Positions 54,086-61,548 of a stretch of DNA of 64,000 bases are shown piece after piece. The DNA lies in the NCBI RefSeq assembly GCF_002210295.1, contig NZ_MWQH01000001.1, positions 930,001 through 994,000 on the forward strand. Reading direction: 5' to 3'. The notes beneath the pieces were generated by a model, which saw only the letters and a list, made by a program, of their open reading frames with translations, searched no databases and had not been told where the DNA came from. Each line of letters begins with the position of its first letter. Within the stretch, counting starts at the first letter, position 1. The position numbers and the translations under genes are program-made. The DNA comes from Fibrobacter sp. UWB5 (GTDB lineage: Bacteria > Fibrobacterota > Fibrobacteria > Fibrobacterales > Fibrobacteraceae).

Positions 54086-55186
54086 ATGGCGTGCGGGCCG
54101 TACATTCTGATTTGCGCGGGCGAAGACTCCGGGGATTCCGTTGGCGAACCCTTAGTCAAGACTCTCGTTTCTCAAAATTTTGCCGTAAAAGGTTCGGGCG
54201 GCCGCCGCATGCAGGCGGCGGGAATGTTGCCCTTGGTCGATTTTGAAACCTTGCCGGTCTCTGGCTTTGGCGATGTCTTGCCCAAGTATTTCAAACTGCG
54301 AGAGAGTTTCAATGCGCTAAAGTCGGCGTTGGAATCGCCGGAATGTCTCGGGCTGATTGCGATTGACTATCCGGGCTTTAATATGAAATTGGTGGCGCGG
54401 GCGGGGGAGCTCCGCAAGCCCGCTTTGTATGTGGCGCCTCCGCAAGTGTGGGCCTGGAAGCGCAAACGCGCGAAGGTCCTTGCCGAAAATCCGTACGTCA
54501 AGCTCGCCGTATTCTTTGATTTTGAAGAATCGGTGTACCGCGAAGCCGGCTGTAACGTGGTCCGCGTCAAGCATCCGTTCGCAGAAATCCAAAATGCAGA
54601 TTGTCGCAGCGAGAATTTTCTCAACGAGAATCTTCGCGACGCCGCAAATCAGGTTCTCCTTCTTCCCGGAAGTCGCAAGGCGCAGGCGCTCCGCAACTTG
54701 CCTATTTATCTGAAAGCGTTGGAGAATGCTGAAAATGTGGTCGTGGTGGCGGCTCGTCAAGAACTGGTGAATGCTTTCAAGAAATATGATGTCCCCGTGA
54801 TTGTCGCTCCCCAAAGTGCGGCGGAGCGAATGGCTCTGTACCAAAGCGCAGAATATGCGTTGACCGCCCCCGGAACATCGACCTTGGAACTTGCCTTGTC
54901 GGGGGCTTCTTTTACGGTTTGCACCAAGCCCGATTTGTTGACTTATTGCTTGGGCCGTTTGTTTATCAAGACTAAATTTTTCGCATTGCCGAACATTATT
55001 CTGAATCGTCTTGTATTCTCAGAACACATCGTCCCCCCGTGGTCGGGGGTCGACGCTTGGTCGTTTACCAAGGTCAAAAAAGAAAATGTCGCGAAAGAGC
55101 TTTCAGAAAAGCTCTCCGTCGGGAAAAGTTTCGATCAATTAGCGCTTGAATTTCTTGGCCAGTTCGTCGAGCGTAAATCGCAGTAA
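54086..55186 (+). CDS. lpxB: Lipid-A-disaccharide synthase
   Basis: 366 residues, GT19. It joins UDP-2,3-diacylglucosamine and lipid X in lipid A synthesis at the inner membrane. Family motifs: ILICAGEDSGDSVG, GGRRMQAAGM, the LIAIDYPGFNMKLV strand, YVAPPQVWAWKRKR, LLLPGSRKAQ and LTAPGTSTLELALSG. It lies 6 bp after dnaE, so it is in the same transcript. Its last 48 nt overlap the 3' end of mutL on the other strand. It shows that the organism makes lipid A. No other lpx gene is in the window. Confidence 0.94.
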   Translation: MACGPYILICAGEDSGDSVGEPLVKTLVSQNFAVKGSGGRRMQAAGMLPLVDFETLPVSGFGDVLPKYFKLRESFNALKSALESPECLGLIAIDYPGFNMKLVARAGELRKPALYVAPPQVWAWKRKRAKVLAENPYVKLAVFFDFEESVYREAGCNVVRVKHPFAEIQNADCRSENFLNENLRDAANQVLLLPGSRKAQALRNLPIYLKALENAENVVVVAARQELVNAFKKYDVPVIVAPQSAAERMALYQSAEYALTAPGTSTLELALSGASFTVCTKPDLLTYCLGRLFIKTKFFALPNIILNRLVFSEHIVPPWSGVDAWSFTKVKKENVAKELSEKLSVGKSFDQLALEFLGQFVERKSQ

Positions 55187-57022
55187 CGTCGGGTGACCGT
55201 AGGGCGACTTGAGCGGTTCCTCGGTCAGCATGAGCTGACTAACGAGGGCGGCCATTTCTTCGGATTTGAGCTTGTCGCCAGCCTGGTAGGCGTTCGTGTT
55301 TGCCCAAGCCTTGGCAATGGTGTCTTGCACCTTGACCATGTCGCCTTCGCTTTTGCCCTCGTCACCGATGCTGTCCAAGAAATCCTTGACCGCCTTGATG
55401 GCGCGTGAAAGCGGGAGAGCGCTTGGAATGGCGCGAATCTGGTAGGTCTCGCCACCGAAATGCTCAATGTAAAAGCCCAAATGCCTGAACTGGTCTTCGA
55501 CGCTCTTGAGGGCTTCGACTTCAAGCTTGGAAAGTTCCAAGAGTTCCGGGAACAATAGCTCCTGGCTGTCCAGGGCGGCCCCGTTTCTTAAGGTTTCGAG
55601 CGCTTGTTCGTAAAGTACGCGAGAATGGGCCGCATGCTGGTCGATCACCAAAAGGCCGTTTGAATCTTCGCCGGCAATGTAGGTGTTGGCAATCTGGAAA
55701 AAAGTGGGCGGAACCCATTGGGTTCCCGGCTCGGGGGTCTCGTTTACCTTGCCTTCCAGCGAAATGACCTTGCCTGCTTCAGGCGTGCTGAACAAATCTT
55801 GAGCTAAATCGTTTTGCGGAGCGCTCTTACGGGGCTTTTCGTAAGTGAATCCTGCCGTCGGGAAATTCGACATTTCGGGAATGTCGCCGCTCGATTCCTT
55901 CGTGGTAAATTCCCTAGGGGTAAAGCTCGGAGCGGGGGGGGCAGCCGGCTTAGAAATCGGTTCTTCAAATCCGTAGGGGACTTCCGGCTTGCAGTCCTGG
56001 AGGTCGCTCAAGTCGATCAAGGGCGAATTGGCCTCCATATCCTTGGTAAAGGCGTCGCGAATGGCGTGGGACACCACCAAGAATACCAGATTTTGGTTGG
56101 CAAAACGCACTTCGCGCTTGGCGGGGTGCACGTTGACGTCAAATTCCATGTCCGGCATGTCTAAAAACAGTACCGAAACAGGCTTGCACTGGGCGCCGTA
56201 CGGCTCGTAGGCCTGCTGCACCGCCTTGCTGATCATCTTGCTTTCGATAGGGCGGTTGCGGATGAATAAAAACTGGTGGTTTCGCTTACCGTTGGTTTCG
56301 GTGGTGGGGGATACGTAACCCCAAACGTGTACACCGGCTTCGGTGTAGTCGACCGGCAAAAGCGCCTTTGCGATTTTTGAGCCGATAGCCTCGGCAATAC
56401 GGTTGCGCAGTTCGCCCGGAACTCCTGTAAACAAGGTCTTGTCACCGACCTTGTAATCAAAGCGGATTTCGGGGTGCGCAATAGCCGTTTTTAGAACAAC
56501 ATCGAAAATTCGGGTGCTTTCGGCCGTTTCGCTGCTCAAAAAGTTGCGGCGAACGGGGGTATTGTAAAAAAGGTTTTCGACCAAAAAGGTCGTGCCGCGG
56601 CTAGCCTGAACATCCTGTTTTTGAACAACGTTTCCACCTTCCAGGATAATTCGGCCGCTGTCACCGTCGTCGGTGGCGCTGGTTATGGTCAATTTGGACA
56701 CGGCGGCGATGGAGGCTACGGCTTCGCCTCTAAAACCATTTGTCTGCAAATGGAACAGGTCGTCTGCATTAAAAAGCTTGGAGGTGGTGTGCCTCAGGTA
56801 ACACAAATCCAGGTCGGCCTCGTTCATGCCTTTGCCGTTGTCGGTAACCTGGATTTTTTTCTTGCCGCCTTCTTCGATGGACACCTGTATACGGGTGGCT
56901 CCCGCATCAATGGCGTTTTCAATCAGCTCTTTTACGGCCGACGCGGGGCGCTCTATGACCTCGCCAGCAGCGATTTTATTGATGATTTCATCCGATAAAA
57001 CGTGTATTTCAGCCGATTTCAT
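55139..57022 (-). CDS. mutL: DNA mismatch repair protein MutL
   Basis: 627 residues. The GHKL ATPase N-terminus has IAAGEVIERPASAVKELIENAIDAGA, TDNGKGM and GFRGEAVASIAAVS. A Pro/Ser-rich linker spans about 350-420. The C-terminal dimerisation/endonuclease domain carries DQHAAHSRVLYE at 461-472. The family endonuclease consensus is DQHA-x2-E-x4-E; here the first Glu is Ser, though the final Glu is kept. MutL links MutS recognition to strand cutting. Start ATG 57022 is leaderless-type with TATATTTG (57027-57034, minus strand) four bases upstream. Its stop lies inside the lpxB 3' end. Confidence 0.95.
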   Translation of the reverse strand: MKSAEIHVLSDEIINKIAAGEVIERPASAVKELIENAIDAGATRIQVSIEEGGKKKIQVTDNGKGMNEADLDLCYLRHTTSKLFNADDLFHLQTNGFRGEAVASIAAVSKLTITSATDDGDSGRIILEGGNVVQKQDVQASRGTTFLVENLFYNTPVRRNFLSSETAESTRIFDVVLKTAIAHPEIRFDYKVGDKTLFTGVPGELRNRIAEAIGSKIAKALLPVDYTEAGVHVWGYVSPTTETNGKRNHQFLFIRNRPIESKMISKAVQQAYEPYGAQCKPVSVLFLDMPDMEFDVNVHPAKREVRFANQNLVFLVVSHAIRDAFTKDMEANSPLIDLSDLQDCKPEVPYGFEEPISKPAAPPAPSFTPREFTTKESSGDIPEMSNFPTAGFTYEKPRKSAPQNDLAQDLFSTPEAGKVISLEGKVNETPEPGTQWVPPTFFQIANTYIAGEDSNGLLVIDQHAAHSRVLYEQALETLRNGAALDSQELLFPELLELSKLEVEALKSVEDQFRHLGFYIEHFGGETYQIRAIPSALPLSRAIKAVKDFLDSIGDEGKSEGDMVKVQDTIAKAWANTNAYQAGDKLKSEEMAALVSQLMLTEEPLKSPYGHPTLLRFTLDELAKKFKR

Positions 57023-57132: not shown

Positions 57133-58428
57133 GTGCTTTCTAACCTATTCCTTCAGTTGACTCACATTGAGTTGCTCATCTCGTATCCTGTCAAGGATAT
57201 CTTGACTCTCATTAAGCGTGACCCTCGTTTCAATGTCAAGTTGCTAAACGACATCTACTTCGAAGATTCGTTCGTGGATGAAAGTGTTCACCGTCTTATG
57301 ATGAACAATGTGGTAAACTGGCTCTATGAACGTGGCGAAAATCCGGACGAATTCGTACAGCGCATTATGGACCGTTGCGCCACTTTCGAAGCGATTCCCG
57401 CTCGTAGCGTGCTTCGTTCTTACCTTCCGTATGTTTCGCAGTTCTATGCAACTGAAGACGTCCGTCAACTCTGCCTTGATATTATTCCGAAGCGTTATCC
57501 GCTGCTTTCCAATGCGAAGTTCCTCCGCCGTGAACTGGTCGACGGTTTCCGCAAGGAATACTTCACCTACCGGTTTGACTCCCCGGGTATGCTGATTACG
57601 AACCCCATGCGCTGGTTCAACGGCTTGGTGCAGATCGGAGCTATTCTCCTGAATACGCCTCGCTACGAAAAAATTGAATATAAGGCTTGCCAGACCTCTT
57701 TTGTGGAAGCTCTTGAAAATCGTGTTGCTGCCGAAGTTCGCGATGGCTTTGTGTTTGTGAATGGCCGCCAGGTGGGCGAATACAAGACCTTTGGCGATTG
57801 CCTTGCCGAATATGGCCTCGAATGGGACTTCGAAGCCGAAAAGAAGATGGCCTGCATCCGCGCCACCGAAGATGTGGTGGACGAAAAGGTTGGCGCAGTC
57901 CTGATTCAGAAGGGTTGCTATTACGGCGCACCGGCTGGTGTGGTCTACTTTGATTACAAGGCCAATGTGGTGGCTCCGGAACCGTTCAACAAGCTCATGA
58001 GTGCCGTGGTTAAGCAGGAATTCGATTCCTGGGAACCGATCCAGAAGGCTCAGGAACAGCTCTTGGAAGCCATGAACGACTCCGTGACGATTATCTACTA
58101 CAAGAGCGACGATTCTATCTCGGTGAACAACAAGCACTTGATGCGTAACGTGCCTGCTCGAATTCTCCGCAACTTGCTGCGCGAATACAGTGCAACTGGT
58201 CGTGAAGAATTTGAAAACCGTGAATTCAAGCGCGATCCGTCTATTTGCATGGACCCGCTGCGTCCGAACTTCGAAAGCCGCTTGAACCGCGTGATTGCTC
58301 ATATCAACGGCTCCGACGATCCGGAACATCCGTCCGAAGGCGTGAAGAAGTTCTTTGAAATCGAACGCCATCGTCGCGGTGGATTCCGCTTCGTACCGAA
58401 GTGCAAGATTATTTTCCGCGAAGAGTAA
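57133..58428 (+). CDS. Unknown protein with possible C-terminal winged helix
   Basis: 431 residues, no signal peptide. It starts at GTG 57133 with GAGG upstream. The N-terminal half is helical (MLSNLFLQLTHIELLIS, VVNWLYERGENPDEFVQRIMDRC). The C-terminal 110 residues read like an OmpR-type winged helix: VPARILRNLLREYSATGREEFENREF, then SRLNRVIAHI and a final FEIERHRRGGFRFVP hairpin. A middle part (FVNGRQVGEYKTFGDCL) may be a second, degenerate copy. If so it is a DNA-binding regulator, but this is a by-eye inference. It is strongly codon-biased, so probably well expressed. Confidence 0.62.
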   Translation: MLSNLFLQLTHIELLISYPVKDILTLIKRDPRFNVKLLNDIYFEDSFVDESVHRLMMNNVVNWLYERGENPDEFVQRIMDRCATFEAIPARSVLRSYLPYVSQFYATEDVRQLCLDIIPKRYPLLSNAKFLRRELVDGFRKEYFTYRFDSPGMLITNPMRWFNGLVQIGAILLNTPRYEKIEYKACQTSFVEALENRVAAEVRDGFVFVNGRQVGEYKTFGDCLAEYGLEWDFEAEKKMACIRATEDVVDEKVGAVLIQKGCYYGAPAGVVYFDYKANVVAPEPFNKLMSAVVKQEFDSWEPIQKAQEQLLEAMNDSVTIIYYKSDDSISVNNKHLMRNVPARILRNLLREYSATGREEFENREFKRDPSICMDPLRPNFESRLNRVIAHINGSDDPEHPSEGVKKFFEIERHRRGGFRFVPKCKIIFREE

Positions 58429-58512
58429 ACGCCTGTTTACTAAATCCCAAATGTAATCGAAACGGATTTAGAAAATAAGCAAATTGGTAGTTCCCGCGGG
58501 CAAATAAATGGG

Positions 58513-58520
58513 TATATTTG
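58513..58520 (+). promoter_or_regulatory. TATATTTG promoter element of the candidate sRNA
   Basis: Exact consensus with no open reading frame following. The next feature is a folded stretch that ends in a terminator at 58658. Confidence 0.45.
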
Positions 58521-58658
58521 GAATCGTGAACGGTAGAAGGGTAAATCCTCAAACGACACTATCATTGCTCCCCTCCTGATAGGTTCAAGGTTCCACATAC
58601 CGATTCATATTTTCTCCTTCTTAGGAAAGGCTCCTCGTTAGAGGGGCCTTTCTTTTTT
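58521..58658 (+). ncRNA. Candidate small RNA with C-rich loop
   Basis: Between the TATATTTG promoter element and a strong terminator there are about 130 nt without a credible ORF. Helix 1 pairs TGAACGGTA (58527-58535) with TACCGATTCA (58598-58607, one bulged A). Helix 2 pairs CTATCA (58559-58564) with TGATAG (58577-58582), exposing the loop TTGCTCCCCTCC (58565-58576), which is complementary to SD sequences. The terminator is 58625-58636/58641-58652 with a GTTA loop and T6. C-rich loops of this kind are known in trans-acting sRNAs of other bacteria. I found no match to SRP, 6S, tmRNA or RNase P by eye. Confidence 0.55.
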
Positions 58659-58692
58659 CATTGACCGGATGGTCAATGAAAAAAGAAAGGCC
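58645..58692. repeat. Perfect 22-bp inverted repeat containing poly-T/poly-A
   Basis: Arms 58645-58666 and 58671-58692 are perfectly complementary with a GGAT loop. Each arm has GGCCTTTC, six T, then CATTGACC. It embeds the T tail of the sRNA terminator, so the second arm gives topB a matching minus-strand T run. Confidence 0.85.
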
Positions 58693-58708
58693 TTCGGCTC
58701 GGCAATGT

Positions 58709-58806: not shown

Positions 58807-61548
58807 TTATTTTTGAGAGATGACTTCGACGGTTAATTTGTTGAAGGCGAGTTTGCCGCCGTCGCGGATTTCAAGCGCTGCGCGGAAGGTCGTGTCGTTC
58901 TTCTTGAACGGCTCCAGAACCGGCGTGAACTTGTTTTTAAGCAAACCCTCCACTTCTTCATCGCTAAATTTGCGCTGGTAGAATACTTGCGGAATGCCAA
59001 AGCCACATTGCGGGTTCATGCACACGTAAGCGGCGTGATTCGCTTCGCCATTACCTTGGTTCGATGTCCCGGTGCGAAAACGCAATTGGTCTCCGCAAAC
59101 GGGGCAGGGAAGGTTCCTGTGGGCGAATTCAAAAACGGTGCGGCCCTTGTTCTCGCCTTCGCCCCATTTGAGGCGTGCGGCGAAATCAGAACCTTTCTTG
59201 CTCTTGAAATCTTGAATCAGCGGCGTCTCGCCGTTGGTAAAGAGCTCGTTTATTTCGGCGGCGGTAAGCGCATGGCCTGCGACAGTCTTGAATAGCGTGA
59301 ATTTGCAATCAACTCCATCGGTCGCGCTGGTGCAGAATAAGGCGTTTTTGTTTTCTTCGAGAATCGCGCCGCAGAGCGGGCACTTGTATTCTGTTTTTTG
59401 TCCGTGGAACTTGCCATCGCTTTCGAATTCAAATTGAATATTGAAATCCTTATCGACCGAAAGCTTCGCTGAAAATTCGGTGCCTTTCTTGCTCTTGAAT
59501 CCAGAAACCGGTCCGACGGTTTCGCCGGCGAGCAGTTTCTTGATCTCGGCGTGGGCAAGCATCTTGCCTGCCACGGTGTGCCCGAATCGGAATCCGCATT
59601 CGGGCTTGGGGCACACGTAGCCCCACGGGGCTACATCGAGCGCGCTCCCGCACTTGGGACATGGAATGCTTTCGGTTACGGTTTCGCGCTCGAACTGGCA
59701 GCCGTATCGCGCATGCAAATCGGCGAACAGCTGCTTCACGTATTCAACGATTCCGTCGCGGAATTCTGCAGGCGCGAGCACGCCCTTTTCTACTTGCGAA
59801 AGCTTGTATTCCCATTCGCCGGTCATTTCGGGCGACTTGACTTTTTCATCCATCAAGGCGATGACTTCGCGCCCGCGGGTGGTACTCACCAGGTAATTCT
59901 TTTGCGCTTCGATAAATCCGCGTTTCTTGAGCGTTTCGATAATGCCTGCTTGCGTTGCCGGCGTACCCAAGCCGCGGTCCTTCATGGCTTCGGCAAGTTC
60001 TTCGTTTTCGATCTGCTTGCCTGCGGTTTTCATCGCGGCCAGGAGCGTCGCTTCGGTATAGTACTTGGGCTTGCTCTTCTTTTTCTTTTGCAGTTCTACG
60101 CTGTCAAAAGGCGCGTGTTCGCCGACGGCCCATTCCGGGAAAGTTTCCACCAGGTTTGTAATTTCGTCGTTGTCGCCCTTGCCTTCGGACTCCCCGCTTT
60201 TTTCGCCGCTGGATTCGTCCTTCTTTTTCCCTTTCTTCTTTTCTTCCTTGACGAGGGCGCGGAATCCCAAATCCTCATTGCGCTTGAGCTTCAAACGGAA
60301 TAGGTCTTTTTCGGTGTTGAGCGCGATTTCCATTTCGTCCCACACGTACGGCTTCAGCCATGCCTGCACAAAACGCTCCTTGGCCAGGTCGTAAATCTTC
60401 TGCTCCATTTCGGGCAAATCGTTCGGGGCTTCTCCGGTGGGGATAATGGCAAAGTGGTCTGTCACCTTGCTTGAATTGATAAAGACGAAATTCTCGTCGA
60501 AGGTGCGGAAAATCTTTTGCTGCTCCGGGTTTGCCAATTTTTGAGCAAGGGCGTAGGCTTCTTGCTTCATGGTGTCGGGCAGGTACTGCGAATCGGTACG
60601 CGGGTAGGTGAGCAGTTTCTTTTCGTACAGGTTCTGCGCGCAATCCAGAACTTGCTGGGCGCTGTATTTAAAACGCTTGTTGCCCTCTTTCTGCAATTCG
60701 GTCAAGTCAAAAGGCTTTTGCGGGAACTGCTTCTTTTGCTGGGTATCGATTTTGGCGATCGCGGCTTCTGTCGGCGGATTGCATCGTGCCACCACCGCAT
60801 TCGCTTCCGTCTCTTTTTCGAAGACGGCGACTTTGTCGTCCTTGAGCAATTGGGCCTGGAATCCTTTCCATGTGCCCACGACGCTGTAGTAGTACAGTTC
60901 CTTGAATTGCTCCACGATGGTATCGCGTTCTACAATCAGGTTCAGGGTCGGCGTCTGTACTCGTCCCACCGAAATCATCTTGCCGCGCCCTGCGGTGAGC
61001 GTGTAGGCGCGTGTCGCGTTCAGGCCCACCATCCAGTCGGCTCGCTGCCTTAAGCGGGCTGCATAGCTTAAATTCAAGCGCTGGGAGGCGTCTTCCAAGT
61101 TCTTCCAGGCCTTGTCCAAGTCTTTGGCCACATAGCTGTTCACCCACAGGCGCTTGATGGTCTTTTGCTTAAAAGAGGGTGTGTAATCGAGCACCAAGTC
61201 AAAAATCAAGTTACCTTCGCGACCGGCATCCGCGCCGTTCACCAGAACGTCGGCTTGCTCCATCATCTGGCGCACCACATTCAGTTGCTTCTTGGTGCTC
61301 TCGATTTCCATGAGCTTGAATTTCTCGGGGAGCAGGGGCAAATTCGAAAGCCGCCAGCCGCCTTCGAATCCGGGGTAGGCGTCAAGAGGCGCAAGGGTAA
61401 TCAGGTGACCCACGCACCAGGTGATGCAGTGGTTCTTGCCAATCAAGCATCCGTCGCCCTGGGTAAATTTTTCCCCTTCCAACCGCTCCAGCATGGGGCG
61501 GTAGTGTTGGTTTGCGACAGACGGTTTTTCGGCGACAAGCAGGATCAC
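58807..61548 (-). CDS. topB: DNA topoisomerase III (type IA) with three C-terminal zinc-ribbon-like repeats
   Basis: 913 residues. The TOPRIM domain has VAEKPSVA (Glu7) and GADAGREG (Asp107, Glu111). The catalytic Tyr is Tyr315 in LLTYPRTDSQY. A Lys/Glu/Ser/Gly-rich charged insert interrupts the chain near residues 440-475. The C-terminus carries three zinc-ribbon-type units (CPKCG...CPKPECG, CPLCG...C, CPVCG...CMNPQCG), each followed by a similar topoisomerase C-terminal repeat (FKSKKG.(E/D)F.A.L). It decatenates DNA. It starts at GTG 61548, which overlaps the TGA of the upstream gene (GTGA), so the two are coupled. Confidence 0.92.
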   Translation of the reverse strand: MILLVAEKPSVANQHYRPMLERLEGEKFTQGDGCLIGKNHCITWCVGHLITLAPLDAYPGFEGGWRLSNLPLLPEKFKLMEIESTKKQLNVVRQMMEQADVLVNGADAGREGNLIFDLVLDYTPSFKQKTIKRLWVNSYVAKDLDKAWKNLEDASQRLNLSYAARLRQRADWMVGLNATRAYTLTAGRGKMISVGRVQTPTLNLIVERDTIVEQFKELYYYSVVGTWKGFQAQLLKDDKVAVFEKETEANAVVARCNPPTEAAIAKIDTQQKKQFPQKPFDLTELQKEGNKRFKYSAQQVLDCAQNLYEKKLLTYPRTDSQYLPDTMKQEAYALAQKLANPEQQKIFRTFDENFVFINSSKVTDHFAIIPTGEAPNDLPEMEQKIYDLAKERFVQAWLKPYVWDEMEIALNTEKDLFRLKLKRNEDLGFRALVKEEKKKGKKKDESSGEKSGESEGKGDNDEITNLVETFPEWAVGEHAPFDSVELQKKKKSKPKYYTEATLLAAMKTAGKQIENEELAEAMKDRGLGTPATQAGIIETLKKRGFIEAQKNYLVSTTRGREVIALMDEKVKSPEMTGEWEYKLSQVEKGVLAPAEFRDGIVEYVKQLFADLHARYGCQFERETVTESIPCPKCGSALDVAPWGYVCPKPECGFRFGHTVAGKMLAHAEIKKLLAGETVGPVSGFKSKKGTEFSAKLSVDKDFNIQFEFESDGKFHGQKTEYKCPLCGAILEENKNALFCTSATDGVDCKFTLFKTVAGHALTAAEINELFTNGETPLIQDFKSKKGSDFAARLKWGEGENKGRTVFEFAHRNLPCPVCGDQLRFRTGTSNQGNGEANHAAYVCMNPQCGFGIPQVFYQRKFSDEEVEGLLKNKFTPVLEPFKKNDTTFRAALEIRDGGKLAFNKLTVEVISQK

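Follow-up and report, generated by a model that had tools for sequence, protein, structure and literature searches.

INTRODUCTION

Several bacterial small RNAs (sRNAs) act through C-rich segments: UCCC motifs in the staphylococcal RNAs RNAIII, RsaE, and SprD and in FsrA of B. subtilis bind Shine-Dalgarno (SD) regions, and the Listeria RNA LhrC uses three CU-rich sites, two in loops and one in a single-stranded stretch, to bind the SD of lapB, regulation for which Hfq is dispensable (PMC4132741, in the available part of the text). LhrC exposes UCCC motifs in its loops and also between helices, where the RNA is single stranded, and it blocks an SD (same source and part). The RNA that we describe here likewise exposes UCCC in a loop, with a CU-rich linker besides in the genus Fibrobacter, and may likewise block SDs; LhrC differs in being multicopy, whereas our RNA is single copy and occurs only in the Fibrobacteraceae. 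No homology to LhrC was found, and we therefore class the RNA as one that may work like LhrC, not as a member of that family; RNAIII, RsaE, SprD, and FsrA belong to other hosts, and no relation between them and our RNA was found.

The window analyzed in this study is a stretch of 64,000 nucleotides from Fibrobacter sp. UWB5, in which an orphan transcription unit had been proposed at positions 58513 to 58658 on the basis of a promoter box, a folded RNA with an exposed C-rich loop, and a terminator. The Fibrobacteraceae live in guts and in the environment, and the Fibrobacter group comprises important cellulose degraders. A search of the Fibrobacter literature returned no sRNA study and none on this RNA; in their available portions, PMC2864571 names Fibrobacteres in a reference only and PMC9029176 in a table note only.

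RESULTS

Architecture and covariation of the RNA

All three proposed elements were present on the + strand: a -7-type promoter box, TATATTTG (58513 to 58520); a predicted small RNA extending from about 58526 to 58658, as judged by fold, conservation, covariation, and promoter geometry; and an intrinsic terminator hairpin with a T-run (about 58624 to 58660), supported by covariation. The RNA folds at -46.1 kcal/mol, compared with a mean of -32.4 kcal/mol (sd, 3.6) for 200 dinucleotide shuffles, and thus lies 3.8 sd below the shuffle mean, with 0/200 shuffles as good. The helices of the original prediction are clear, but there are more than the two that it counted. The outer helix, P1/P1b, pairs GTGAACGGTA (58526 to 58535) with TACCGATTCAT (58598 to 58608); within it lies an asymmetric internal loop with a 5' side that reads GG-TAAAT-CCT (58540 to 58549) and a partner strand that reads AGG-TT-CC (58588 to 58594), and the hairpin is capped by an anti-SD-like, C-rich apical loop, TTGCTCCCCTCC (58565 to 58576), closed by the stem CTATCA/TGATAG. 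The RNA also has an unpaired CU-rich linker, TTTTCTCCTTCTTAGGAA (58610 to 58627), the final bases of which join the terminator stem; this second stretch had been overlooked. A long inverted repeat (58642 to 58693) spans the terminator and is probably a two-way terminator facing the converging topoisomerase gene (58807 to 61548, - strand); the topoisomerase has three C-terminal Toprim_Crpt repeats, and its adjacency to the RNA is confined to close relatives.

In alignment A3, which holds 75 genus sequences, 68 of them distinct (the alignments exclude L080, which lies at a contig end, and two truncated loci, L034 and L044), 25/34 base pairs carried changes on both sides, 96.4% of cells were paired, and 0/500 shuffles matched the covariation figures; structures slid out of register paired only 35 to 54% of cells. 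A3 was fitted to a covariance model, so these figures lean towards the drawn structure; unfitted alignments give the same base-pair exchanges. Changes on both sides were found in 10/10 pairs of the outer P1/P1b helices (helices 1 and 2) and in 5/10 pairs of the terminator hairpin, where 100% of cells were paired. In other genera, some with a hairpin of only about 70 nt, the outer stem varies freely, and what is kept is GGTAAATCCT together with the apical stem and its loop.

UCCC, the exposed motif of LhrC-like anti-SD sRNAs, occurs in 95/95 aligned apical loops, 80 of which read exactly UUGCUCCCCUCC. Alignment A5 used 29 of 36 nonredundant cores, leaving out L061, L070, L072, L073, L074, L079, and the second copy of L200; mean identity over 29 family sequences was 0.985 in the apical loop and 0.979 in the internal loop, compared with 0.896 in paired columns and 0.60 to 0.68 in the flanks. 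The loop is conserved and the stems covary, the reverse of the pattern, a drifting loop on freely varying stems, that had been named in advance as telling against a regulatory RNA. The linker, a further exposed CU-rich site, was invariant in 77/77 genus Fibrobacter loci, taking a group-1 form in 30/77 and a group-2 form in 46/77, and is absent from most other genera. It came to our attention because near-copies elsewhere lie antisense to lipoprotein-like ribosome-binding sites; its reverse complement looks like such a site.

Distribution

DNA searches located the RNA in 77/80 genomes of the genus Fibrobacter, including 40/40 for which completeness was 90% or higher and contamination 5% or lower. 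The covariance search suggested with the original prediction widened this range to 108/111 Fibrobacteraceae genomes and 11/11 genera when models R1 (built on 20 sequences) and R2 (a core model built on 29) were combined: R2 matched at an E value of ≤0.01 in 102 family genomes, and six more (G008, G035, G036, G053, G062, and G078), with cores too divergent for R2, were matched by R1 at an E value of ≤3.6e-11 or far lower. In the three genomes from which the RNA was missing (G015, G050, and G068, 81, 62, and 71% complete, respectively), any R1 match was no better than chance, and the neighboring gene, UP, was missing as well. At an E value of ≤0.01 there was no match in any of the 56 genomes of the phylum outside the family (0/56), and the exact 20-base loop pattern occurred in 56 stretches among 84,980 species genomes, all titled Fibrobacter, Fibrobacteraceae, Fibrobacterales, Fibrobacteria, or Fibrobacteres, in a scan whose coverage possibly excludes the window's own records. 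The RNA is almost always single copy. Genus g10 has a tandem pair; the second, diverged copy (L200:2234-2375 and L201:2234-2376) has the loop GUGCUCCCCUAU. Weak R1 matches in L211 and L212 are not the RNA and were not counted. In these loci of genus g11 (L211:2001-2107 and L212:1001-1103), the 3' end of another gene bears a CU-rich linker and terminator, TTTCTCCTCCTAGGGAAAGCCC, a module resembling the 3' module of the Fibrobacter RNA.

No Rfam 15 family reached its gathering score in the window. Below threshold, the best sRNA match came from suhB, which covered the linker plus terminator at 26.9 bits (cutoff, 41); LhrC, RsaE, and other Rfam sRNA models gave only below-threshold matches in the window, that of RsaE being at chance level (14 bits) and on the other strand. 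The locus is a previously uncatalogued predicted small RNA gene that is almost family-wide in the Fibrobacteraceae.

Promoter geometry and translation start types

Leaderless genes, as had been claimed, are a feature of this genome: among 94 box-bearing genes drawn from 360 upstream regions, the box lay 12 to 16 nt before the ATG in 20, a sharp peak with 0 in the complement control, and in a slightly wider bin the peak stood at 19 versus 2 of 310 in genome G042 and 15 versus 0 of 298 in G102. TATATTT was found upstream of genes 55 times in sense and 27 times in antisense orientation. Leaderless genes with a TAnnTTTG-type box, a box like that of Bacteroidetes-type promoters, occur on C1 of the genome and include the window's mutL (55139 to 57022, - strand). 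At the RNA loci, the distance from box start to the base at which the outer stem begins was 10 to 13 nt in 75/75 cases (13, 12, 11, and 10 nt in 37, 34, 1, and 3 loci, respectively), and by the distance rule of leaderless genes the RNA most likely starts at that base, near 58526 (±2 nt); its 3' end is placed at the terminator T-run. Upstream of the box, an ATAAG...GTAGTT block (58474 to 58492, + strand) is the column majority over 77 loci, and AAATAAG, about 40 nt from the box, is conserved at these 77 loci and is not general in the genome, other boxes showing no peak at about 40 nt.

SD-like sequences precede 38 to 55% of genes, depending on class, compared with 5 to 7% in a control region: 32/58 lipoprotein-like, 47/115 signal/transmembrane-like, and 157/417 other genes. 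They are somewhat commoner in lipoprotein-like genes; by these counts, however, most SD genes are cytoplasmic, and the proposed concentration of SD-led genes among surface and secreted functions is not supported. The counts agree with the description of SD sequences as less obvious yet detectable in Fibrobacteres in PMC3155529, which, in its available part, does not describe our RNA.

The neighboring gene UP

UP (57133 to 58428, + strand) lies directly upstream of the RNA in 77/77 genus loci and is adjacent in 12/20 fetched family loci, a set that includes the false matches L211 and L212. In L196 the RNA directly adjoins the stop codon of UP. In L205, L206, and L208, which have no UP, the RNA adjoins a mutL-like gene (so called from its likeness to the window's Pfam-supported mutL), as would be expected if UP had been lost from a mutL-UP-RNA arrangement. 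The 431-residue UP protein had no meaningful match in Pfam or NCBIfam. In an AlphaFold2 model (pLDDT, 88), residues 2 to 276 align to H-NOX domains with a Z of 9.3 over 171 aligned positions (rmsd, 3.4), and residues 319 to 431 align to the winged helix of BaeR with a Z of 9.5 over 95 positions (rmsd, 2.7), although Z values of this size can reflect common arrangements, and families missing from the structural comparison were not taken as evidence. Foldseek matches were weak (E value, 0.05; for the C-terminal domain alone, 4b09 at a probability of 0.90 and an E value of 0.11). We predict an H-NOX-fold N terminus joined to an OmpR/BaeR-like winged helix; UP may represent a new kind of one-component regulator, and it is possible that it regulates the RNA. 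More distant relatives of UP, mostly frames of about 450 to 485 residues, occur in other families of the phylum.

Target searches

Permuted loops paired as well as the native loop with SD-bearing starts in 1/40 cases in G000, 0/40 in G042, and 5/40 in G102. Overall, as had been predicted, the loop paired somewhat better with SD starts than most permutations did, but by functional class it mostly did not: in the three functional classes of G000, 14, 9, and 16 of 40 permuted loops were as good. For the group-1 linker, set against the SD plus start codon, 0 or 1/60 flank permutations were as good in four gene sets. Start-codon pairing of the linker, which at first looked strong with 0/60 for lipoproteins, turned out to reflect the oligonucleotide itself in all three genomes tested and was rejected as proof of targeting. 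The group-1 linker fits equally well in G102, whose own RNA is without that linker, and the group-2 linker shows no excess fit to SD-bearing starts; start-codon pairing is therefore not evidence of coevolution.

Extended linker complementarity was likewise discarded as proof of targeting: complements of 20 nt with up to 3 mismatches totaled 56 in 80 genomes, compared with 67 for a reversed-pattern control, both figures being sums and the 56 excluding the RNA itself. Two high-scoring candidate targets, presumably DUF1232-like and LemA-like, were also rejected, the SD being kept and the longer pairing lost in relatives (30 loci each, the genomes that matched numbering 59 and 70, respectively). 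No perfect complement of the loop close to a start was convincing, and neither the linker complement search nor the pursuit of the two candidates in relatives yielded a conserved target. Since there is no excess of complements and the candidates are not conserved, the mechanism set out below is a reasoned proposal and not a demonstration. The Hfq profile PF17209 had no match in the genome at an E value of ≤10.

DISCUSSION

We suggest, with a probability of about one-half, that the locus encodes a Fibrobacteraceae-specific, trans-acting anti-SD small RNA. The RNA would be transcribed from its own promoter box, starting at the base of the covarying long hairpin, and would expose the near-invariant C-rich loop and, in the genus Fibrobacter, the second CU-rich stretch before the terminator. 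One or both of these stretches may pair with G-rich SD regions and so, with no need for Hfq, keep ribosomes from binding a set of SD-led messages; those that are leaderless, having no SD, would escape. Where present, the UP sensor/winged-helix protein may control transcription of the RNA. The fully elaborated version, in which an Hfq-free RNA switched by UP, as an H-NOX-like sensor with a winged helix, sorts messages by their translation start, silencing SD-led and sparing leaderless ones, is speculative, and we consider it unlikely to be correct in all its parts.

A point against the anti-SD reading is the UAAAU internal loop, the conservation of which equals that of the apical loop and is left unexplained by SD pairing. 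Both elements might instead bind a protein, the apical loop acting together with the UAAAU/UU internal loop in a structural, sequestration, or housekeeping role to which the likeness to an anti-SD is incidental. The near invariance across genera of two separate unpaired elements (0.985 and 0.979), the single copy maintained throughout the family, and the failure of the linker complements and the two candidates to disclose a conserved target would all suit such an RNA; divergent members, however, have lost the UAAAU sequence and retain UCCC, and the mild excess pairing of the loop with SD-led starts is left without a role, so that we regard protein binding as possible but doubtful. A diverged 6S or SRP RNA is very unlikely: the 6S model (RF00013) has no match in the genome at an E value of ≤10, which leaves a vacancy, but the approximately 70-nt hairpin of some genera was judged too short for a 6S rod, SRP RNA (RF00169) exceeds its cutoff elsewhere, with its sole match at G000:C9:129427-129523, and the window gives no Rfam match at gathering score.

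The constant proximity of UP in the genus, its adjacency in 12/20 family loci, and the abutting stop codon in L196 raise the question of whether the RNA is a 3' untranslated region (UTR) element of UP, or a product derived from one, that acts only with UP. The interval from UP stop codon to box ranges from 41 to 168 nt, with a terminator-like hairpin in between in 4/77 loci, whereas the RNA's own box stands at its fixed distance in 75/75; moreover, 16 family genomes from five genera carry the RNA with no UP match. It is therefore not merely the 3' UTR of the gene at 57133, an explanation that had been put forward as a challenge to an orphan unit, and the 3' UTR account in any form seems to us improbable; the evidence supports the view that the RNA behaves like an independent sRNA gene. 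Least probable is a short leaderless coding gene. The original prediction saw no credible open reading frame, which is right for the family, but in the window's group a 17-codon frame, VNGRRVNPQTTLSLLPS (58526 to 58576), opens on a GTG located where the RNA is predicted to start. Of 72 sequences, 64 have the GTAAATC motif on which the count is based and 8 do not; the frame is open from a start in 29/64, but 35/64 either lack a start or run into an in-frame stop, and variation tracks base pairs.

In summary, comparative analysis of the locus adds a strongly supported sRNA family that, as judged in the window, lies outside Rfam 15 at gathering score. If the loop does work as an anti-SD, the mixture of leaderless and SD-led genes in this genome would make it a natural test case for regulation keyed to how translation is initiated.
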